From positions 1 through 41,388 of the forward strand of contig JAJFFJ010000113.1 in NCBI GenBank assembly GCA_021776685.1: a DNA stretch of 41,388 nucleotides, given 5' to 3'. The position numbers were made by a program, and so were the translations under genes. The notes beneath the pieces are model-generated. The model saw nothing but the letters and a program-made list of their open reading frames with translations, was not told the DNA's origin and did not search any database. This DNA comes from Alphaproteobacteria bacterium. Lineage in GTDB: Bacteria; Pseudomonadota; Alphaproteobacteria; Bin65. Below, one piece after another: positions 7,100-40,127 of the stretch; the first letter of the stretch is position 1; each line of letters begins with the position of its first letter.

Positions 7100-9513
7100 T
7101 CATTCTTCGCCTCTTGCGATGGCTGCTGATCGGCATCGTCACCCTGGTGCTGCTGATCGCGCTGTTTGCCGGAGGCATGTATTTCTACATGCGGGGTTCG
7201 GTGCCGGAGACCACCGCCACCTACAGCCTGCCGGGGCTGACTGCCGAGGTGAAGATCTACCGGGACGGAAATGGCATCCCCTACATCTATGCCGCTTCTA
7301 CTGATGACGCCTATTTTGGCCTTGGTTTCGTCCACGCCCAGGACCGTCTTTTCCAGATGGATTTTCAACGCCGTGTGGGCCAGGGCCGGCTGGCGGAACT
7401 CGTTGGCGGCAGCGCGGCACCCATCGACCGGATCATGCGGGTCCTGGGCCTCTATCGGCTGGCAAAACGGTCGATCGCTCATATGTCACCGGAATCGCGC
7501 CGGGCGGTTGAGGCCTATACCCGGGGCGTCAATGCCTGGCTGAAGCACCGGCGCGCGTTGTTGCCCCCGGAATTTTTCCTGCTGTGGTACGACCCGGAGC
7601 CGTGGACGCTTCCCGACACCCTCGTGTGGGGACGGCTGATGGCCTTGCAGCTCTCTGTCAATTGGCGTTCTGAGCTGGCGCGCATGAGGCTCAGAAAGCT
7701 GCTCGGTGATGCGCGGATGCGGGCTCTGTTCCCCGCCTATCCGGATGATGCGCCGACAACGATCCCCAAGGAAGCGCTGCGCCGTCTACCGCTTGGCCGC
7801 CTGTGGGCTGCCCTGCCCCATCACCTGATCGGCAACGGCGCGTCGAACGAATGGGTGGTCTCCGGCAACCGTAGCGCCAGTGGCAAGCCGATCCTCGCCA
7901 ATGACCCGCATCTGGGATTGAACGTTCCCACGCTCTGGTATCTGGCGCACATCTCGGCCCCCGGTCTGACTGTCTCTGGCGTCACCGTGCCGGGCGTGCC
8001 CTATCACATCATTGCCCATAACGGCCGTATCGCCTGGGGCGTCACCACCAGCCAAATCGATACAGACGACCTGTTCATCGAACGGGTCAACGGGAGCGAC
8101 CCGACCCGCTATGACACCCCGGACGGACCCCGCGCCTTCGTCCGCTGGGAAGAGATCATCAAAGTCCGCTTTGGCAAATCCCAGAAAGTAGTGGTCCGGC
8201 AAACCCGCCATGGGCCGGTATTGGATTCGATCCTGTTCGGCGGCGCGAAAGGCGCCTCCCCGTTGGGGCCGCGCTATGTGCTGGCGCTGAAGGCGCCGTG
8301 GCTGCGCGAGGATGACACCACGGCCGATGCCTTCTATCTGCTTAACCGGGCCCGCAACTGGCAGGAGTTTCGCGCAGCCTTACGGCACTGGCAGGCGCCC
8401 CTGCAGAATGTGGTCTATGCCGATGTGGCCGGCAATATCGGCTATCAGCTGCCGGGACGTGTGCCGATCCGGAAAAAGGGTACGGGCTGGCTGCCATCTC
8501 CCGGCTGGACCGACGACCACGCCTGGACCGGCTTCATCCCCTTCGACAAGCTGCCCAGCAGCTACAATCCGGCGGATGGCTATTTCGTCAACGCCAACAG
8601 TCGCATCGTCGGGAAGGACTACCCCTATTTTCTGTCCCATGGATGGGGCGGCCGTTTTCGCGCCCAGCGCATCGTTGATCTGATTGAAATCACCGGCAAA
8701 CACACGCCAGACAGTTTTGCGAAAATGCAGGGCGACCACCTCTCCCTCCCGGCACGCACCCTCGCACCGTTGATCGTGCGCGCACCTGCCCGGCACAAGG
8801 CTGCCCGTCGGGCCAAGGCGATGTTACGCGGGTGGGACTTCCGCATGGCGCGTGGCAAGCCAGAGCCGCTGATCCTGATGGCATGGGCCCGCGCCTTCGG
8901 GCGTATTCTGATCACCGATGGGCTGCCCAAAGGGCAGAAAGCGCCGAAGGGCCTGCCGCGCAGCCTCGGCATCAGCGTGATCGTGCACCTGATGAAGAGC
9001 AACTCACCCCTGTGCGATGCCGCCGCCACGCCGAAGAAGGAAACCTGCCAGGACATCGCCGGCCGGGCCCTGGACCAGGCGCTGACCACATTGGTGAGCC
9101 GCTACGGCGACGACCTCGCCGCCTGGCGCTGGGGACGTGCTCACCAGGCCCATATGAGCCATCGAACTTTCACTTTTTTTCCGGTCCTGCGGGACATGTT
9201 TGACTTGAAGATCGGCGCGGACGGCGGCCAGCAGACGATCAACAAGGTGCAAGCGTCCATGTCTGGTAGCGGCGGCAACTTCGATGCGCGCAGCGGGCCA
9301 GGCGTGCGGGCGATCTTCACCTTTGATGACCTGCGCAAGTCGCGGTTCATGATCGCGACCGGCCAATCGGGCAATCCTTACTCACCTTGGTACGGTAATC
9401 TCCTGGCCCGCTGGGCAGACGTCAAATACCTCCGCTTTCGCACCAGCAGAAAATCCCTGGAAGCGCGCAACAGCGGCGTGCTGACACTGCGCCCGGCAAA
9501 GGCAGCCAAATGA
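7096..9513 (+). CDS. Penicillin-acylase family protein (Ntn hydrolase), membrane-anchored
   Basis: An 805-aa precursor of the penicillin amidase family, which splits amide bonds of N-acyl substrates (penicillins, acyl-homoserine lactones and others). An N-terminal hydrophobic stretch (about 7-31) forms a TM anchor or uncleaved signal. The N-terminal nucleophile is Ser250 in IGNGASNEWVVSG; autocleavage before it would release the beta chain. Following motifs PILANDPHL (265-273) and VSGVTVPGVPYHIIAHN are typical. The alpha part includes GFVHAQDRLFQMDFQRR (77-93). Start is GTG at 7096, overlapping the preceding stop; the 3' end overlaps the next start (ATGA). Substrate cannot be told from sequence; acyl-homoserine-lactone acylase is one option. 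Confidence 0.93.
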   Translation: MIILRLLRWLLIGIVTLVLLIALFAGGMYFYMRGSVPETTATYSLPGLTAEVKIYRDGNGIPYIYAASTDDAYFGLGFVHAQDRLFQMDFQRRVGQGRLAELVGGSAAPIDRIMRVLGLYRLAKRSIAHMSPESRRAVEAYTRGVNAWLKHRRALLPPEFFLLWYDPEPWTLPDTLVWGRLMALQLSVNWRSELARMRLRKLLGDARMRALFPAYPDDAPTTIPKEALRRLPLGRLWAALPHHLIGNGASNEWVVSGNRSASGKPILANDPHLGLNVPTLWYLAHISAPGLTVSGVTVPGVPYHIIAHNGRIAWGVTTSQIDTDDLFIERVNGSDPTRYDTPDGPRAFVRWEEIIKVRFGKSQKVVVRQTRHGPVLDSILFGGAKGASPLGPRYVLALKAPWLREDDTTADAFYLLNRARNWQEFRAALRHWQAPLQNVVYADVAGNIGYQLPGRVPIRKKGTGWLPSPGWTDDHAWTGFIPFDKLPSSYNPADGYFVNANSRIVGKDYPYFLSHGWGGRFRAQRIVDLIEITGKHTPDSFAKMQGDHLSLPARTLAPLIVRAPARHKAARRAKAMLRGWDFRMARGKPEPLILMAWARAFGRILITDGLPKGQKAPKGLPRSLGISVIVHLMKSNSPLCDAAATPKKETCQDIAGRALDQALTTLVSRYGDDLAAWRWGRAHQAHMSHRTFTFFPVLRDMFDLKIGADGGQQTINKVQASMSGSGGNFDARSGPGVRAIFTFDDLRKSRFMIATGQSGNPYSPWYGNLLARWADVKYLRFRTSRKSLEARNSGVLTLRPAKAAK

Positions 9514-10754
9514 CCAGCTTTGCAATTTCCCTCGACCATATTCAGGCGGCGGCCAGGAAGCTGGAAGGCCAGGTGGCGCGCACGCCAACGCGCTACTCCC
9601 CCAAGCTGAGTGAGCTTCTGGGTGCGGAAATCTGGCTGAAGCTTGAGAACATGCAGTATGTCACCTCGTTCAAACAGCGGGGCGCCTACGTCAAGCTTTC
9701 CGAACTGAACGATGACGAACGCAAGCGCGGCGTGATCGCGGTATCCGCAGGCAATCATGCCCAGGGCGTCGCCTACAACGCGCAGAAGATGGAGGTGCCA
9801 GCCATAATCGTGATGCCCCAGACCACGCCTTTCACCAAGGTGCGCCAGACCCGGCGCTATGGGGCGGAAGTGGTGTTGGTGGAAGGCAACGACCTGGCGG
9901 CAGCGGCGCCCCATGCCGAGGCGTTGCAGGCGGAACGTGGCCTCACCTTTGTGCACCCCTACGATGATCCCGCGATCATGGCCGGCCAGGGCACGGTCGC
10001 GCTGGAAATGCTCGAGGACGGGCCGGCAAACCTCGACTATCTGGTTGTCCCAATCGGCGGCGGAGGATTGATCAGCGGCATGGCGATCGCCGCCAAGGCC
10101 CTCAACCCACAGATCGAAATCATTGGCGTCGAAGCCAAGCAATATCCTTCCGCCTACCAGGCGTTGCGGGGAATCGAGGCCACATCCGGCGGGGTGACAC
10201 TGGCGGAGGGCATCGCGGTAAAGCATCCGGGCGCCTTGACCCTGCCGGTGATCGACGCGCTGGTCCGGGACATCCTGCTGGTCGACGAATTGGCCATGGA
10301 GTCCGCCATCCGCACATTCATAGACCTGGAAAAAACCGTGGTCGAAGGCGCGGGCGCCGCGGCGCTGGCTGCCGTAGAAGCGAACCGCGAGCGCTTTCGC
10401 GGTCAAAAAGTTGGTATCGTGGTCAGCGGCGGCAGTATCGACTCCCGCTTGCTGTCGTCCGTGCTGTTACGGGGCCTGGTGCGGCGCGGCCAGCTGGTCC
10501 ATATCCGGGTCCATATCTCGGATGCGCCCGGGGTGCTGGCGCAGGTCGCCAGTCTGGTGGGCGAATGCGGCGGCAACATCGTCGATGTGGCCCATCAACG
10601 GCTGTTCCACAGCGTCCCGATCAAGATGACAGACCTCGACATGACCATCGAGACGCGCGGGCCCGAACATGTGGACGAGATCCTGCGCGCATTCCGCAAG
10701 GCCGGTTTCGAGGCTGCCCTGATCAGCCGCATCGAAGAAGGCGACCTGGCCTAG
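9510..10754 (+). CDS. ilvA: Threonine ammonia-lyase with C-terminal ACT domain
   Basis: PLP-dependent deaminase converting threonine to 2-oxobutanoate and ammonia, the first step to isoleucine or of threonine breakdown. The 414-aa protein has the PLP lysine in TSFKQRGA (Lys55), an asparagine motif SAGNHAQG (79-86), the phosphate-binding loop GGGGL (183-187) and a single ACT domain (about 330-405; HIRVHISDAPGVLAQV). The short form with one ACT domain differs from the long biosynthetic E. coli IlvA. Its ATG overlaps the acylase stop (ATGA). The 3' end is 3 bp from the convergent eipB stop, with no room for a separate terminator. Confidence 0.95.
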   Translation: MTSFAISLDHIQAAARKLEGQVARTPTRYSPKLSELLGAEIWLKLENMQYVTSFKQRGAYVKLSELNDDERKRGVIAVSAGNHAQGVAYNAQKMEVPAIIVMPQTTPFTKVRQTRRYGAEVVLVEGNDLAAAAPHAEALQAERGLTFVHPYDDPAIMAGQGTVALEMLEDGPANLDYLVVPIGGGGLISGMAIAAKALNPQIEIIGVEAKQYPSAYQALRGIEATSGGVTLAEGIAVKHPGALTLPVIDALVRDILLVDELAMESAIRTFIDLEKTVVEGAGAAALAAVEANRERFRGQKVGIVVSGGSIDSRLLSSVLLRGLVRRGQLVHIRVHISDAPGVLAQVASLVGECGGNIVDVAHQRLFHSVPIKMTDLDMTIETRGPEHVDEILRAFRKAGFEAALISRIEEGDLA

Positions 10755-10757
10755 ACT

Positions 10758-11549
10758 TTAGTTGGTCTTGCAGGTCTCCGGCTTCAGGGGCTTTGCCGAG
10801 ACCAATTTACCGCTCAGGCTGAGGCCGCCTACCTTCGCACGCATTATCAGCGTGACACCGTTACCGAGAACGATCTCGTCGAGGCCGGGCCGTCCGCCAC
10901 CTGACGAATCGCGCCTCGAAAAGGCTTGGCTCTGCACGCGATAGGCCTTGTCTACTCTCAGCGGCGCAGCGATTGCCGACAGCGGCGGGACCGGCGCTGA
11001 CGCGACCTTGTCCGACACCAGCATGACCTGGCCGCTGCTTTCGTGATCGAAGACCAGAGATGATCGACTGGTTTGGCCTTTGGCGATATCGACCAGGGTC
11101 CGCCTTACGTGACTGAGAGGGAAAATCGTCCCCTTTGGCAGATGAACGGTGCGCCGCCCCGTATTTTTGGTGACTGTCGCGGTTCCCACGCCATCGGCCG
11201 TGCGCTTGGCCACGACCTTGATTTCTTCGCGCATTTTGCCGGCAACCACCCGCGTGCGCGATTCATAGGTCAGGCCATCAAGGCTCTCAACTGCTGCCAG
11301 CCGCAGGGTCATGGATAGTTTCTGGCCACCGGCAGCGAAGGACATGGTCATGACCGTGAACAAGCGCCATGCGGTACACGTCCGCTCGACCTTTACGGTC
11401 GCCTTGCCACCGCCGCTCAGTTGCTGGCCACCAGCGCCACCGCGGATGGTCAGGTGATAGGTGGCCTCATGTGGGGCAAGGCTCTGGGCTGCCGCCGGCG
11501 CGGCAACAAGAACCATCAGGACAAGTGATGGGGCGGCAACGCGGCTCAT
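10758..11549 (-). CDS. eipB: Cell envelope integrity protein EipB (DUF1849), soluble periplasmic copy
   Basis: A 263-aa exported protein of the EipB/DUF1849 family, a periplasmic beta-spiral protein needed for envelope integrity in Brucella. Signal peptide to about residue 22 (AAAQ). The mature start LAPHEATYHL, the core motif LPKGTIFP (137-144) and the two cysteines expected to form the family disulfide (Cys58 and Cys260) are all present. I prefer the ATG at 11549 (MSRVAAP) because AAGG lies nine bases before it; an ATG three codons upstream directly abuts that AAGG. It lies downstream of a second EipB-like gene on the same strand (gap 108 bp), so the two form a tandem pair. Confidence 0.88.
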   Translation of the reverse strand: MSRVAAPSLVLMVLVAAPAAAQSLAPHEATYHLTIRGGAGGQQLSGGGKATVKVERTCTAWRLFTVMTMSFAAGGQKLSMTLRLAAVESLDGLTYESRTRVVAGKMREEIKVVAKRTADGVGTATVTKNTGRRTVHLPKGTIFPLSHVRRTLVDIAKGQTSRSSLVFDHESSGQVMLVSDKVASAPVPPLSAIAAPLRVDKAYRVQSQAFSRRDSSGGGRPGLDEIVLGNGVTLIMRAKVGGLSLSGKLVSAKPLKPETCKTN

Positions 11550-11657
11550 GGGGGGCATCCTTGCGGGTGGCAGTCAGGTTGGGTACGCAGCGCGTTCGAA
11601 CTTGGTGCCAGGGGAATTTGATGCCTGTGCAGGAAGATTTCCAGTCGGATCCGGAAA

Positions 11658-12836
11658 TCAGCGCTTGGCCTTGTTTTTCTCCCGGCAAGGCCCGGTCGGG
11701 ACGACGCGGGCTCCGGCCAATGTCGATACCACCTGCATGTCGCCAACGTCCATCCTGGTCCAAAACGTAACGCCCTTGGCGTTGATGGCGATGGACGCGC
11801 GGAAGAGGCGCTCACGGTCCTGCGAGGCGCTGTCGTGATAGGCATAGTCAATCTGCCATATCCTATTTGACTGCAGCCGCTCGGGCATGCGTACGCCCGG
11901 CACTCCCTTGCGCATCTTGCGACGCGCCTCCTCGTTAAAGGGGGTGATGACGGCTCTTACCTTCAACAATAGATTTGGCGAAGATTTGCCGTAGGCTGTC
12001 GCGAGATACTCGCGCTTGCCCGCCGACGCGGCGGCAATCAACTGCTTCAGGTAGGCAACCGGAAAAATCGTCCCCTTTGGCAACGACAGAAGCGTTCGCG
12101 CGTCACCATTATCGGCGAATGCCTCTCCTGGCCCGTCAGGCGCAGTCTTCGCGACCGCTTTGGTGATCGTCGACGTGCCGAACTGATGCCACCTGTAGTC
12201 AATGGCATAGCGTCTGCCATCCACTGATTCCTTGTGAACGATCATGATTGAGACCGGGTCCGGTCCGTCTTCTGCGAGGCCTTTGTATCGATAGCCGGAT
12301 TGAAAGGTCCACGTGCCGCAATAGAGCATGTAACGAAGCTCTGCCGTACCTTTCATGATTGCCGGGGCTTTCGAGCGACCCACAGGAAAGGCTTCAACCC
12401 GGTATGTCGCGTCGTGAGGCACCAATTCCCCAGGCGACTGCACTACCACTTTGGGCTGACCTTTCACGGCAACACCAGGTGTCGTGGTACTTCCTTTAGA
12501 AGTTGTTTTGCCCGCCGCTTTGATTGGCTTGGCCGGCGCTTTGCCGTTGCGCTGGACGACGCTGGGAACAGTGCCAGGCTTCCCGGCATTATCGACGCTG
12601 GCTGCCGTCCGGATGACACCCGAATTCGGGCGCGGCTGGCGCTTTGCAGCGGCTTTTCCAGGTGCATTGACCTTGACGGCAGCCTTGCCGGCCGGCGCTT
12701 TGGCATCGGGTTTCATCATGTAGTAGCCCGCGGCGCCCACAAGCGCCACAAAGCCAATGGCCTGGAGCAATGTACGCTTGGACGGCTTGGAGCTCCGCTC
12801 TGGCCGGGCAACTTTGATTCTTGGGCGTTTCAGCAT
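11658..12836 (-). CDS. EipB-like (DUF1849) protein with N-terminal membrane anchor and Ala/Lys/Pro-rich linker
   Basis: A 392-aa protein: a basic N-terminus, one TM helix (about 22-41), a low-complexity linker rich in Ala, Lys, Pro and Gly (about 43-130), then an EipB-like domain. The domain shows LVPHDATYRV (138-147), LPKGTIFP (252-259) and cysteines at 173 and 384. The distance from the first Cys to LPKGTIFP is 79 residues, the same as in the adjacent EipB. The layout implies an inner-membrane-tethered domain that reaches into the periplasm, while the neighbour is free. AAGGA seven bases before the ATG supports the start. The aspS gene ends 48 bp upstream on the same strand. Role in envelope integrity is inferred from the family. 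Confidence 0.8.
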   Translation of the reverse strand: MLKRPRIKVARPERSSKPSKRTLLQAIGFVALVGAAGYYMMKPDAKAPAGKAAVKVNAPGKAAAKRQPRPNSGVIRTAASVDNAGKPGTVPSVVQRNGKAPAKPIKAAGKTTSKGSTTTPGVAVKGQPKVVVQSPGELVPHDATYRVEAFPVGRSKAPAIMKGTAELRYMLYCGTWTFQSGYRYKGLAEDGPDPVSIMIVHKESVDGRRYAIDYRWHQFGTSTITKAVAKTAPDGPGEAFADNGDARTLLSLPKGTIFPVAYLKQLIAAASAGKREYLATAYGKSSPNLLLKVRAVITPFNEEARRKMRKGVPGVRMPERLQSNRIWQIDYAYHDSASQDRERLFRASIAINAKGVTFWTRMDVGDMQVVSTLAGARVVPTGPCREKNKAKR

Positions 12837-12884: not shown

Positions 12885-14672
12885 TTAGGCCGGATCCTCC
12901 TGGGGGTCCGGCAAGCCGTGGTGGCGCAGATACAATTCCTGCAAACGCGCGTCCGGTACGTTCGCCGGCGCGCCCATCATCAAATCCTGCGCCTGCTGGT
13001 TCATGGGGAAGGCGATAACTTCCCGGATATTTGGCTCGTCCGCCAGCAGCATGACGATCCGGTCAATGCCCGGCGCAGAGCCGCCATGGGGCGGCGCGCC
13101 GAACTTCAGCGCGTTCAGCATGCCGGAAAATTCCCGCTCAAGATCTTCGGGGCCATAGCCGGCAATCTCGAAGGCCTTGTACATGATCTCCGGGCGATGA
13201 TTCCGTATCGCACCGGAACTGAGTTCAACGCCGTTGCAAACGATGTCGTACTGCCAGGCCTTGATGGTCAGCGGGTCGTCATTCTCCAGCGCCTCCAGCC
13301 CGCCCTGGGGCATGGAGAAGGGATTGTGGCTGAAGTCCATCTTGCCGGTGTCATCCAGCTCGAACATGGGGAAATCGACGATCCAGCAGAAGCGGAAGAC
13401 ATCCTTTTCCAAAAGATCGAGTTCATCGCCCAACCGGGTGCGCACGGTGCCGGAAAATTCGGCTGCATCCCCGGGCATATCGCAGGCAAAGAAGACGGCA
13501 TCGCCGTCAGAGACGCCGGCCGCGGCGGCGATCTCAGCGGTTTTCTCTGCGCCCAGATTGTTGGCGATCGGTCCGGCACCCTCACCGTCGCGCCAGAAGA
13601 TGTAACCCAGACCCGGCTTGCCCATGTCCTTCTGGGCCCAGCTGTTCATCCGGTCGCAAAATGCGCGGGAACCTGCGCCTGGTCCCGGAATAGCACGCAC
13701 GATGGCGCCTTTTTCAATCAGACCGGCAAAGATCTTGAAGCCAGAGCCGCGGAATGTCTCGGTCACATCGACAATTTCGATGGGATTGCGCAGATCCGGC
13801 TTATCTGAGCCATATTTCAGCATCGCGTCATCGAAGGGAATTCGCGGGAACGGCGCTGGCGTCACGGCCCGCTCGCCGCCAAATTCCTCGAACACCCCAT
13901 GCAACACTGGCTCAATGGCTTCAAAAACATCGTCCTGGGTGACAAAGCTCATCTCAAAGTCGAGCTGGTAGAATTCACCAGGTGAGCGGTCGGCGCGGGC
14001 ATCCTCGTCGCGGAAGCAGGGCGCGATCTGAAAATATTTGTCGAAGCCCGCCATCATCAACAGCTGCTTGAACATCTGCGGTGCCTGGGGCAGCGCATAA
14101 AATGTGCCGGGATGGAGGCGCGACGGCACCAGATAGTCGCGCGCGCCTTCGGGTGAACTGGCCGTCAGGATGGGGGTCTGGAACTCCCGGAAACCCTGGT
14201 CGATCATACGGCGGCGGATCGATGAAATTACATCGGAGCGAAGCGCGATGTTGCGCTGCATCTTCTCCCGACGCAGGTCCAAATAGCGGTGGCGGAGACG
14301 CACATCCTCGCCATAGTCGGTCTCGCTGTTAACCTGCAATGGCAGTGGATCAGCGGCACTTTCGATCTTGGCGCTCTCCACCCGTACTTCCACCTCGCCG
14401 GTAGGCAACGTCGTGTTGATGGTGTCATCGCTACGATTATCGACCTTGCCGGTAACGGTCAGCACGCTCTCCAGCTTGACCTCTTCCAGGATCTTGAATG
14501 ACGGCGCGTCCGTCTCCACCACGCATTGGGTGAGGCCGAAATGGTCGCGCAGGTCGACGAACAGCAGATTGCCATGATCGCGCTTGCGATGGACCCAGCC
14601 CGACAGGCGGACTTCCTGGTCAGATTGGTCGAGCCGCAGCTCGCCACAGGTGTGGGTTCTGAATGGATGCAT
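12885..14672 (-). CDS. aspS: Aspartyl-tRNA synthetase, bacterial type, probably non-discriminating
   Basis: A 595-aa class II synthetase charging tRNA(Asp). It has the OB-fold anticodon domain (about 1-110), class II motif 2 ([19 protein letters not shown] region), the bacterial GAD insertion, and motif 3 (GIDRIVMLL). In the anticodon domain it reads [10 protein letters not shown] (29-38): His33 sits where discriminating E. coli AspRS has Leu and where the non-discriminating Pseudomonas enzyme has His. This suggests it also aspartylates tRNA(Asn), which would require GatCAB; the window holds neither gatCAB nor asnS. I chose the ATG at 14672 ([12 protein letters not shown]), the conserved family start; the frame open to 14762 adds residues with no similarity. 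No strong ribosome binding site is visible. Confidence 0.97.
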
Positions 14673-14809
14673 GAAATGGGACCGTCGATGGTTCGAACCG
14701 GCGCGACAGCTTGGGCTGCGGGACGCCTGCAGGTGGACCTTGAAGCCATTTGAGGCAGCCACTTGTCAAGCTGTGGCTGGAATTGCGCGACTATTCACCC
14801 TGTCGCGCC

Positions 14810-35546: not shown

Positions 35547-35691
35547 AAGTGCACCAGTGGGCGCAGCAGCGGCGGACCATCCGTATCAGATTTAGGCGAC
35601 CGAAGGCGGTTGGGCAACCTGCACGCAATGACACGGCAGACGCGTTCGATTGCCGCTATCAGGACCAGAAGGCCCCCGCTATAAACAGCCC

Positions 35692-36843
35692 ATGCTTCGT
35701 CTGCAAACCTATCTGTTCCGCCAGTTGTTCATATCCACCGTGTTCGTCACGCTGACGCTGACCATGGTGCTGTGGCTGACTCAGTCCATGCGGTTCGTGA
35801 AATTCATCCTGAACCGCGGGTTGGAGCTGTCGACATTTCTGGAACTGACGATGTTGCTAATCCCCGGCTTCTGGCTGGTGATTTTGCCCATCTCGCTGTT
35901 TTTCTCCACACTGTTCACTTACAACAAATTCACCAATGACCGGGAGTTGGTGGTAATGCGCGCGGCTGGCGTCAGCCAGTTGGGGCTCGCAAAGCCAGTC
36001 CTCATTCTTGGCGGACTGGTGATGCTGTTCTGCTATCTCCTCAGCCTCTACGTCGTGCCTCTCTCATTTCGGCAATTTCGCACCGTACAGCACGAGATTC
36101 GCTCGAATATTTCCGCCGGCCTGATTCAGCAAGGAAGCTTCACGCAGATAACCCGCGGCCTGACGATTTATGTGCGGGAGCGGGTGGATACCGAAATTCA
36201 CGGCATCATCTTGCATGACACACGCGACGCGACGAAACGCATCACAATGCTGGCTGAGCGCGGCATCGTCCTGCCATCGGACCAAGGTCCCCGCGTGTTG
36301 ATGCTGAATGGCAGCCGACAGGAACTGGACATCAAGAGTGGCAAGATTTCACTGCTGTATTTCAAGCGGTACGGTTTTCGCCTGGCGGATCCATCCAAAC
36401 GAAAAAAGCGAGTCTTCCGACAGCCTGAAGAACGCTTTGTCGGACAACTGTTGGAGCCCGACAATTCGGCCCACGACAAATTTTACCGGAAGAAGCTGAT
36501 CGCGGAAGGCCACAACCGCATAGTGGGGCCGCTGGGAGCGCTTGTCATGCCGTTGATCGCGCTGGTCGCGCTGCTGACCGGTGAGTTCAACAAGAGAGGT
36601 CAGGCGATCCGACTGGTGGCGGCATGTGGGATCGCCGCGGCAATGCAGGGGACCATGATTGGGCTGCTCAGTGCGTCCGCCAAGAACAACATTCTGATTC
36701 CACTGACCTACCTGAATATGATCATCCCATTTTGCTTGCTTCTCTACTTTCTGGTCCGAAGTCCCCGGCGCCATAAAGGGAATGTCACCGGCGCCCCGCC
36801 GCCGGTTGACTCAGCCGAAGCCCCGGTGACAGGGGCAACCTGA
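35692..36843 (+). CDS. lptF: LPS export ABC transporter permease LptF
   Basis: A 383-aa inner-membrane permease that, with LptG and the ATPase LptB, extracts LPS toward the outer membrane. N-terminal helices (about 11-35, 50-75, 95-120), a periplasmic beta-jellyroll (about 130-275) and C-terminal helices (about 285-365) are visible. FTNDRELVVMRAAGVSQ (about 79-95) is the conserved LptF/G coupling segment facing LptB. The ATG at 35692 is chosen over the TTG at 35650 because MLRLQTYLFRQ is the usual start; no strong ribosome binding site is seen. TGATG overlap with lptG (1 nt). Confidence 0.96.
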   Translation: MLRLQTYLFRQLFISTVFVTLTLTMVLWLTQSMRFVKFILNRGLELSTFLELTMLLIPGFWLVILPISLFFSTLFTYNKFTNDRELVVMRAAGVSQLGLAKPVLILGGLVMLFCYLLSLYVVPLSFRQFRTVQHEIRSNISAGLIQQGSFTQITRGLTIYVRERVDTEIHGIILHDTRDATKRITMLAERGIVLPSDQGPRVLMLNGSRQELDIKSGKISLLYFKRYGFRLADPSKRKKRVFRQPEERFVGQLLEPDNSAHDKFYRKKLIAEGHNRIVGPLGALVMPLIALVALLTGEFNKRGQAIRLVAACGIAAAMQGTMIGLLSASAKNNILIPLTYLNMIIPFCLLLYFLVRSPRRHKGNVTGAPPPVDSAEAPVTGAT

Positions 36844-37952
36844 TGACCGGCCGCAACCTGTCTCTGACACTCTCACTCTACATAGGGCGTCAGTATCTAC
36901 TTGTTTTCGCCGGCATTCTGGCGATTTTCGTCTCGATTGTGCTGATGATCGACATGATCGAGCTTCTTCGCCGCTCGTCAGGCAAAGCCGACGTCACCTT
37001 CAGTCTGGTCATGACGATGGCGGTCTACAAGCTGCCTCTGACCGCCCAGAAAACCCTGCCCTTCGCCATTCTGTTTGCCGGCATGTTCGCGTTCTGGCAG
37101 CTCAACCGACATAGTGAGCTGGTCGCCCTCCGGGCTGCCGGCGTCTCGGTCTGGCAGTTTCTGCTCCCAGTATTCGGTGGCGCTCTGTTGATCGGCATCG
37201 TCAAAATTACCCTGATCAACCCGCTGGGCACCCACCTGATCGCTCAATTCGAGTTGCATGAAAACCGTTACCTGAAGGGGCGGTCCCAGTTGATGGCGGC
37301 ATCGGCATCCGGCATCTGGCTGAGACAAACCGATAAAAAGGGCGACACGGTTATTCATGCCAAACAGTCGAAAGTTGCCGCCAATGGGCTGAAGCTCCAG
37401 CAGGTTATGGTGCTGCTCTATGCCAAGGGCGACCACTATATCGGGCGCATCGACGCGGCTCAGGCCAGATTGGACAAGGGTTTTTGGGTCCTGGAAAACG
37501 CGCTCGTGCGCATGAAGGACAAGCCCGACAAAAAGCACCCGAGCTTCAAGATCGCCACGGATCTGACATTCGACAAGATTCAAGAGAGCTTCTCTTCACC
37601 CGCGTCGATCTCATTCTGGGACCTGCCAAAATTTATCCGGTCCCTCGAGGCGACTGGCTTCTCTGCGCTAAGCCACCGGCTTCATTGGCATTCCTTGCTG
37701 GCCGAACCAATGCTGTATTTGGCGATGATCCTAATTGCAGCGGTTTTCTCCCTGAGGCATAACCGGCGGACCGGAATCTTGCTTTCGGTCGCGGGGGGAG
37801 TCGGTGCAGGTTTTCTTTTGTTCTTTATTTCCGACCTTGTGCTGGCGTTGGCGCACTCGACCAACCTGCCACCTATCATGGCGGCATGGTCACCCGCTAT
37901 GGCCAGCGCCTTCTGCGGCCTTGCTATCTTGCTTCATGTGGAAGACGGCTGA
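36843..37952 (+). CDS. lptG: LPS export ABC transporter permease LptG
   Basis: A 369-aa partner permease of LptF. The typical N-terminus LSLYIGRQYLLVFAG, the coupling segment LNRHSELVALRAAGVS (about 87-102), a periplasmic jellyroll (about 125-270) and C-terminal helices (about 285-365) are present. ATG overlaps the lptF stop by one base, so the two permeases are translated together, as expected for a heterodimer. lptD follows 18 bp downstream. Confidence 0.96.
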   Translation: MTGRNLSLTLSLYIGRQYLLVFAGILAIFVSIVLMIDMIELLRRSSGKADVTFSLVMTMAVYKLPLTAQKTLPFAILFAGMFAFWQLNRHSELVALRAAGVSVWQFLLPVFGGALLIGIVKITLINPLGTHLIAQFELHENRYLKGRSQLMAASASGIWLRQTDKKGDTVIHAKQSKVAANGLKLQQVMVLLYAKGDHYIGRIDAAQARLDKGFWVLENALVRMKDKPDKKHPSFKIATDLTFDKIQESFSSPASISFWDLPKFIRSLEATGFSALSHRLHWHSLLAEPMLYLAMILIAAVFSLRHNRRTGILLSVAGGVGAGFLLFFISDLVLALAHSTNLPPIMAAWSPAMASAFCGLAILLHVEDG

Positions 37953-37970
37953 GCAGAAGTTGCAGAGACC

Positions 37971-40127
37971 TTGCTGAAACGACTTACCATTCTGCTGATC
38001 GCCTTAGGGGTCGCTGCCGGCGGTGCCAGCGCGCAGGTGCTGCGCGGCGCTAACGACAAGCTACCGGTGCTGGTGAGCGCCGATAACCTGCAATATGACC
38101 GGGAGCGGGATATCATTACCGCCAGCGGCCGGGTGCGGGTGTCCCAGGGTGACAACGTCATCCTGGCGGACAATCTGGTCTACAACCGGCGAACCAAGAT
38201 CCTGATCGCCACTGGCAAGGTCAGCGTCACCCGGCCCAGTGGCGAAACCGTCTTTGCCTCTCGTGTTGTGTTGAGCGACGATCTGAAAAACGGCGTTATT
38301 CATCAGTTCCGTCTGCTGTTTCCAGATAATACCCGGGTTGCCGCCAATGGCGCAGTGCGCGTGGGCGGCAAACGCGATGAAATGGCGAAAGTAGTCTTTT
38401 CGCCCTGCAACCTCTGCGAAAAGGATCCCACGGCGGCGCCGCTCTGGCAGATCAAGGCGCGAAAGCTGGTCCATCTGAAGGAAGAACGTGACCTGGTCTA
38501 CCGTGATGCCTGGCTAGAGGTTTTTGGCTTCCCGGTTTTCTACTCCCCTTATTTCCGGCATCCGGATCCGTCGGTGCGGCGGCGTAGCGGCTTTCTTGTT
38601 CCCAAATTCGGAGGCGAGAGCACGCTGGGGCAGTTTCTTAAAGTGCCCTATTTCTATGCAATCTCCCGGGACAAAGACATCACCATCACGCCCTTCCTCA
38701 CCACAAAGGAGCGGGCGGCCCTATTTGCTACCTACCGGCAACGCTTCAAGAATGGCGCGGTGATCCTCGACGGCAGCTACACCTACGTTCGGCGTCAGAA
38801 TGACGAGGGTGAGCACATCAGAGGCAATCGCAGCCGAGGTCATTTGTTCGGCAAACTGCACTATGACATAAACCGCCACTGGCGCTTCACCTTCGATGGC
38901 GGCGTGACAACCGACGATACCTTTCTGCGCCGATACAGCGTAACCGGCACTGATGTCCTGACCACAACTCCCAAAATCGAAGGATTCTACGGCCGCAACT
39001 ACTACGCCGCGGAATCATTCATTTTCCAGGGGCTCAGAACAGAGGACGACTTCGACAAGGACGGCATCGTCTTGCCGATGCTGACATTTTCTGCATTCGG
39101 CAAGCCTGTGCGCCGCTGGGGCCGGTGGCATGCGAATGGCAGCCTGGTCGGCCTGCAGCGACTGGAGGGAGCGGCCAATCAAAGGCTCCACGCAAATGCT
39201 GGCTGGCGGCTGCCCTTTACGCACAAGAGTGGCTGGCAGCTGGCAGTCAGTGCCGACGTCCATTTCGATCTTTTCCTGTTGAACAATGTTCCACGTTTGG
39301 GTGCACGTTCGTTCAACGGGTTTGTATCCCGCGTCTACCCAATCGGGCGTATCGACTGGCGATATCCGTTCGTGCGCGAACTGGGAAATGTCAGAAACGT
39401 CATTGAGCCCCGAATCGCGATTGTCACCGCTCCGACCGGGCTCAATACCGGCAAGATTCCCAATGAAGACAGCCAGGATATTGAACTTGATGACGCAAAT
39501 CTGTTCTCGATCAACAGGTTCAATGGCCGTGACCGGGTCGATGACGGCAGTCGGATCGTTTATGGAGTCCGGACTGCTTTCTTCGGCAACCGTGGGGGTC
39601 GCACGGATATCTTCCTCGGACAGAGCCTGCGTATCGACGGATCGCGGTCGATAACCGTCGATCCGTCATTCCGGGAAACATTCTCTGACATCGTAGGTCG
39701 TGTTCAATTCGAGCCCGGCGATTTTCTCAGCCTCGCTTACAGGTTCCGGTTCGATGTCTCTGAAATGACCTCGCGTCGTCATGAACTTACGGCGTCATTT
39801 GGTGTTCCCGCCCTTCGGGCATTCGTCAATTATGTCAAATTCTCAGGGAATGGCGTTAGCGAACCTGCCGGCCGCAGTGAGCTTGTTTTTTCGCTGAATA
39901 GCCAGATCACCAAGAACATCTCTATGTTCGGCGGCGCCCGCATTGACTTGGCCAGAGACGGCGGGGTGCGTCGCTGGCAAATGGGCGCCCAATTCAAGAA
40001 TGAGTGCTGTACAATTCGTGGGACCTTTACACGAACATTTTTTACGGACCGGGAGCTTCGCCCCAACAGTTTGTTTATCGTCGAAATTACGCTTAAACAT
40101 CTGGGCGGTTTCGGCATTTCCAGGTGA
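37971..40127 (+). CDS. lptD: LPS-assembly protein LptD
   Basis: A 718-aa outer-membrane translocon that inserts LPS into the outer leaflet together with LptE. Signal peptide to about residue 21 (GASAQ), an OstA/LptA-like jellyroll (about 32-135), then the beta-barrel. Cysteines are at 146 and 149 (SPCNLC) and a CC pair at 679-680, which mirrors the interstrand disulfides of E. coli LptD. The start is TTG at 37971, within 20 bp of the lptG stop, with only a weak ribosome binding site. Order lptF-lptG-lptD-surA fits alphaproteobacteria. Confidence 0.96.
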   Translation: MLKRLTILLIALGVAAGGASAQVLRGANDKLPVLVSADNLQYDRERDIITASGRVRVSQGDNVILADNLVYNRRTKILIATGKVSVTRPSGETVFASRVVLSDDLKNGVIHQFRLLFPDNTRVAANGAVRVGGKRDEMAKVVFSPCNLCEKDPTAAPLWQIKARKLVHLKEERDLVYRDAWLEVFGFPVFYSPYFRHPDPSVRRRSGFLVPKFGGESTLGQFLKVPYFYAISRDKDITITPFLTTKERAALFATYRQRFKNGAVILDGSYTYVRRQNDEGEHIRGNRSRGHLFGKLHYDINRHWRFTFDGGVTTDDTFLRRYSVTGTDVLTTTPKIEGFYGRNYYAAESFIFQGLRTEDDFDKDGIVLPMLTFSAFGKPVRRWGRWHANGSLVGLQRLEGAANQRLHANAGWRLPFTHKSGWQLAVSADVHFDLFLLNNVPRLGARSFNGFVSRVYPIGRIDWRYPFVRELGNVRNVIEPRIAIVTAPTGLNTGKIPNEDSQDIELDDANLFSINRFNGRDRVDDGSRIVYGVRTAFFGNRGGRTDIFLGQSLRIDGSRSITVDPSFRETFSDIVGRVQFEPGDFLSLAYRFRFDVSEMTSRRHELTASFGVPALRAFVNYVKFSGNGVSEPAGRSELVFSLNSQITKNISMFGGARIDLARDGGVRRWQMGAQFKNECCTIRGTFTRTFFTDRELRPNSLFIVEITLKHLGGFGISR

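Follow-up and report, generated by a model that had tools for sequence, protein, structure and literature searches.

The closest described counterpart of the genes analysed here is EipB of Brucella abortus, which belongs to the Pfam family PF08904 (EipB_like, formerly DUF1849) and is represented in the PDB by entry 6NTR. Brucella EipB is a periplasmic protein and a determinant of envelope integrity; whether its molecular role is LolB-like, that of an outer-membrane protein chaperone, or something else is among the open questions (PMC10787603). In Rhizobiales its locus is the bamA cluster (PMC10787603). Possession of LolA without LolB is usual for the class, and it has been proposed that, in the absence of LolB, LolA performs both functions (PMC10787603).

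The window (the whole 41,388-nucleotide stretch analysed, positions 1 to 41,388 of contig JAJFFJ010000113.1 from an Alphaproteobacteria bacterium) contains two tandem genes for proteins of this family, e1 and e2, at 10758-12836, exactly where the original prediction had placed them. The relevant features are:

9510-10754, forward strand: ilvA-like gene, flanking the EipB pair on the side opposite aspS.
10758-11558, reverse strand: e1, 266 aa, an apparently secreted EipB-like paralogue with a short Sec-type leader, MSRVAAPSLVLMVLVAAPAAAQ (read by eye), followed by the EipB domain.
11658-12836, reverse strand: e2, 392 aa, an EipB-like paralogue with an N-terminal hydrophobic segment and a long spacer.
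12714-12836, reverse strand: basic N-terminus of e2 (residues 1-21, 9 of them basic) and hydrophobic segment TLLQAIGFVALVGAAGYYMM (residues 22-41), a putative signal anchor.
12429-12713, reverse strand: spacer of e2, residues 42-136 (95 residues), predicted disordered.
11658-12428, reverse strand: EipB domain of e2, with Cys173 and Cys384 (protein numbering).
12885-14762, reverse strand: aspS (aspartyl-tRNA synthetase), directly upstream of e2, 76% identical to the best named locus, which comes from an uncultured alphaproteobacterial MAG.
35650-40127: two LptF/LptG-like permeases and then an LptD-like ORF, all identified by eye in the translations; these are probably genes for LPS export.

Gaps of 99 bp (e1/e2) and 48 bp (e2/aspS) separate the genes, and e1 and e2 are presumably co-transcribed. 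As read from the sequence, the annotated ATG of e2 is preceded by a ribosome-binding-like AAAGGA. In e1, an AAGG abuts the first ATG and precedes the second, at 11549, by 9 nt, so the latter is probably the true start. A six-frame search of the genome (4.54 Mb, 98.9% complete) found e1 and e2 as its only EipB genes. In many relatives, the gene upstream of EipB is usually aspS (of 80 named AspS loci, 24 have an EipB gene after aspS), and the window keeps both strand and order; the pair sits beside aspS, in contrast to the bamA cluster described for Rhizobiales. In one genome of the window's own family (G010), a thioesterase-like ORF recognised by eye (L010 347-763), absent in the window, lies between aspS and the EipB pair.

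Both proteins match PF08904 well above its curated cut-off of 25 bits (e1, 82.3 bits, E 5e-23; e2, 71.5 bits, E 1e-19), so the matches are not due to chance. EipB_like is the sole Pfam match of each, and a search of NCBIfam returned no match. By phmmer, e2 matches 6NTR (E 2.3e-6), and e1 has no match among PDB sequences. The PHEATY/PHDATY and LPKGTIFP motifs and two cysteines in family positions, all foreseen in the original prediction, are present in both proteins. The cysteines (C61 and C263 in e1, C173 and C384 in e2) occupy columns that do not vary across an alignment of 32 sequences, made up of e1, e2 and 30 EipB domains from named-record loci, and the family disulfide probably stabilises both domains. 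In four family members elsewhere (L154, L165, L188 and L169) the domain has fewer than two cysteines; this disulfide is therefore not universal. The distance from the first cysteine to LPKGTIFP is, as had been noticed, 79 residues in both copies, but it is nothing special: 82 of 90 family members measured have a spacing of 79-81. We therefore rejected it as a sign of recent duplication.

AlphaFold2 models were built on the EipB-domain alignments. That of e1 has a mean pLDDT of 87.4, and that of e2 shows blocks of pLDDT 80-97 between residue 131 and about residue 380; the order of strands is identical in the two. In Foldseek searches of the PDB, the top four matches of each model are the four chains of 6NTR (e1, E 1.8e-13, TMt 0.81-0.86; e2, E 9.6e-15, TMt 0.81-0.84), beyond which scores drop sharply, with LolA among the distant matches. 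Both proteins are thus predicted to adopt the beta-spiral fold of Brucella EipB. Neither outcome named beforehand as refuting the idea, a second protein without a DUF1849 match or with another predicted fold, occurred. The pair shares family HMM, predicted fold and cysteine positions with the Brucella protein, at about 18-22% identity in structural alignments. It differs in comprising two diverged copies, of which e2 alone adds a hydrophobic segment followed by a 95-residue basic spacer.

The pair is tandem, as predicted, but its copies are very divergent, with 23% identity over 252 aligned columns. Judging from conserved positions, neither is canonical: e1 keeps 58% and e2 56% of 59 such positions, whereas the median for 146 reference members is 80%. 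Few terminal branches in the tree are as long as theirs (3.1 and 3.7 changes per column). Conserved positions lost number 25 in one copy and 26 in the other, 19 of them in common where 11 would be expected. Complementary motif loss (subfunctionalisation) is accordingly not supported: the losses lie largely at the same positions, a pattern that speaks against a straightforward complementary split and gives no sign of a complementary division of labour between e1 and e2.

The family is present in 231 of 385 genomes drawn from the class, nearly always as a single copy. Adjacent pairs were nonetheless found in four genomes of one family (G075, G194, G287 and G364), three of another (G096, G208 and G376), in G110, in G009 and G010 from the window's own family, and at the named loci L084, L096, L103, L104, L107 and L113. 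The pair is therefore not unique to the window: surveyed alphaproteobacteria of five or more other groups also have tandem EipB genes, the two same-family genomes among them. The Reyranellaceae-like pairs (L103, L104, L107, L113, L184, L185, L193 and L065) and those of G009 and G010 are adjacent and on one strand, and lie downstream of aspS wherever the stretch includes it, all as in the window. In both groups, however, one copy of each pair is canonical (scoring 176.7 bits in G010 and 168.8 bits in G009), whereas neither is in the window. In three genomes with tandem pairs (G364, G075 and G194; loci L199, L200 and L204), a third, very divergent paralogue is encoded elsewhere in the genome.

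Second copies from the Reyranellaceae-like group, family f87, G009/G010 and the Rhodospirillaceae loci occupy separate supported groups in the phylogenetic tree, which is consistent with EipB having apparently been duplicated several times independently. Those of G009 and G010 nest with the canonical copies of their own family in a clade supported at 99%. The survey indicates that duplication has often taken place at one locus next to aspS. The placement of e1 and e2 shifts with the taxon set, and the order to which the window genome belongs contributed 11 genomes to the sample, which limits dating of the pair. Assignment of e1 or e2 as orthologue of the relatives' first or second copies was not retained, as AU tests reject no alternative (p 0.53-0.81). 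A search of genome contigs with e2 as query found no relative, and a second scan used AspS. e1 also matches EipB-like sequences on seven large Azospirillum plasmids, for example NZ_CP032322.1 48210-48821 (26-28% identity in the five matches listed); an EipB gene can thus lie on secondary replicons.

Both proteins begin with N-terminal hydrophobic segments, anchor calls for all proteins being based on hydropathy and inspection. That of e2 (residues 22-41, hydropathy 1.81), originally described as a transmembrane helix, is a hydrophobic segment read from sequence and a putative anchor; the model places short helices in this N-terminal part, at pLDDT below 50. The Ala/Lys/Pro-rich spacer, estimated beforehand at about 90 residues, measures 95 and ends before ELVPHDATY. 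Its most frequent residues are A (17), K (14), P (12), V (12) and G (11), and with 18 basic and 2 acidic residues it carries a net charge of +16. As pLDDT is below 50 over residues 8-119, the spacer is predicted to be disordered. Fully extended, 95 residues would span about 34 nm, while the end-to-end distance of a disordered chain, by polymer estimate, is typically several nanometres. It is therefore plausible that the arm could reach peptidoglycan, whereas the outer membrane would come within reach only if the chain were stretched.

Long N-terminal spacers recur in the family. Besides e2, nine of 172 EipB hits examined have a distance of at least 43 residues from the strongest hydrophobic stretch to the domain. 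One of them is L148, in which an unset start may have produced the gap artefactually; the remaining eight represent four families. As their compositions differ, the spacers of different EipBs probably arose separately. Three of these nine hits, from one family, look signal-anchored and are canonical, single-copy EipBs with the apparent anchor MLRRA..FFL.RW.F.GG:

L028, 508-2244.
L036, 1258-2238.
L206, 1506-3911.

Like e2, they combine a hydrophobic N-terminal segment that has no clear cleavage site and a long low-complexity spacer (60-90 residues, Ala/Pro-rich) with an EipB domain. They differ in being the sole genomic copy, in having a spacer that is not lysine-rich and in retaining 86-92% of conserved positions. 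They are a cleaner case of an apparently tethered EipB than the window. Pairs and long spacers each occur separately elsewhere, so neither part of the soluble-plus-anchored design is unique; only the combination of an apparently tethered with an apparently secreted copy, in a genome that has no canonical one, is confined to the window genome among the alphaproteobacteria surveyed. The window pair is an unusual form of a protein already known, not a new one.

On the most economical reading, a free and a probably tethered paralogue share the EipB job, and we favour, with moderate confidence, a division of one envelope-maintenance task between them. Diverged from periplasmic EipB at a conserved aspS-eipB locus, e1 would be exported and released into the periplasm, while e2 would retain its hydrophobic segment as an inner-membrane signal anchor and bear its beta-spiral domain, which like that of e1 would contain the family disulfide, on an arm that is flexible, strongly basic and about 95 residues long. 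The arm would set the zone of e2, near the inner membrane and peptidoglycan, and e1 could act anywhere in the periplasm; that the pair spans or regulates different envelope zones, as first proposed, is an inference. Anchoring of e2 is itself quite likely. The three sole-copy proteins are a precedent for an apparently anchored, long-spacer EipB serving a genome alone, and tandem pairs have precedents as well. The segment might instead be cut off as a signal peptide whose n-region is long and basic, leaving both proteins soluble and e2 with a long flexible N-terminus. This would suit its glycine/alanine-rich composition, the AAG-type sites near its end (GAAG being a possible cleavage site) and the ordinary cleavable-looking leaders of other long-spacer EipBs (L154, L165 and L193). 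We consider it rather unlikely: some 21 residues including 9 basic ones ahead of the hydrophobic segment are unusual for a cleaved Sec leader, the full 20-residue hydrophobic stretch leads straight to KPD, and a possible later site, AKA, has a proline directly after it.

The long branches (3.1-3.7) and low retention of conserved positions (56-58% against a median of 80%) could also reflect ordinary duplication under relaxed constraint, with one copy decaying or redundant and no new role. We judge this improbable: both frames are intact, the cysteines and LPKGTIFP are retained in each, the two domains are modelled at high confidence, and no canonical copy is left in the genome to carry the function. 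A more novel reading, in which a canonical copy was replaced by a two-component EipB whose polybasic-arm tethered partner and free partner cooperate across the periplasm, is unlikely. A handover relay is possible in principle: inner-membrane e2 would pass cargo to e1 in a LolB-like or OMP-chaperone role in outer-membrane biogenesis. LolA structures turn up among the more remote fold matches, the genome encodes LolA with no match to LolB (PF03550) anywhere in it, and such roles have been raised as open questions for EipB (PMC10787603). The LolA and LolB carriers have a distantly similar beta fold, but show no sequence match to e1 or e2 (neither is a LolB by HMM), and the structural similarity to LolA is low (TMt about 0.3-0.4, rmsd of roughly 10 or above). 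Given also the proposal that LolA does the work of LolB as well where the latter is missing (PMC10787603), we regard the relay as very improbable.

The survey points to repeated duplication of EipB, frequently beside aspS. If the tethered reading is true, EipB variants fixed to one membrane, alone in L028, L036 and L206 and with a free partner in the window, would constrain the site at which EipB acts and would speak against models that require a single free shuttle.
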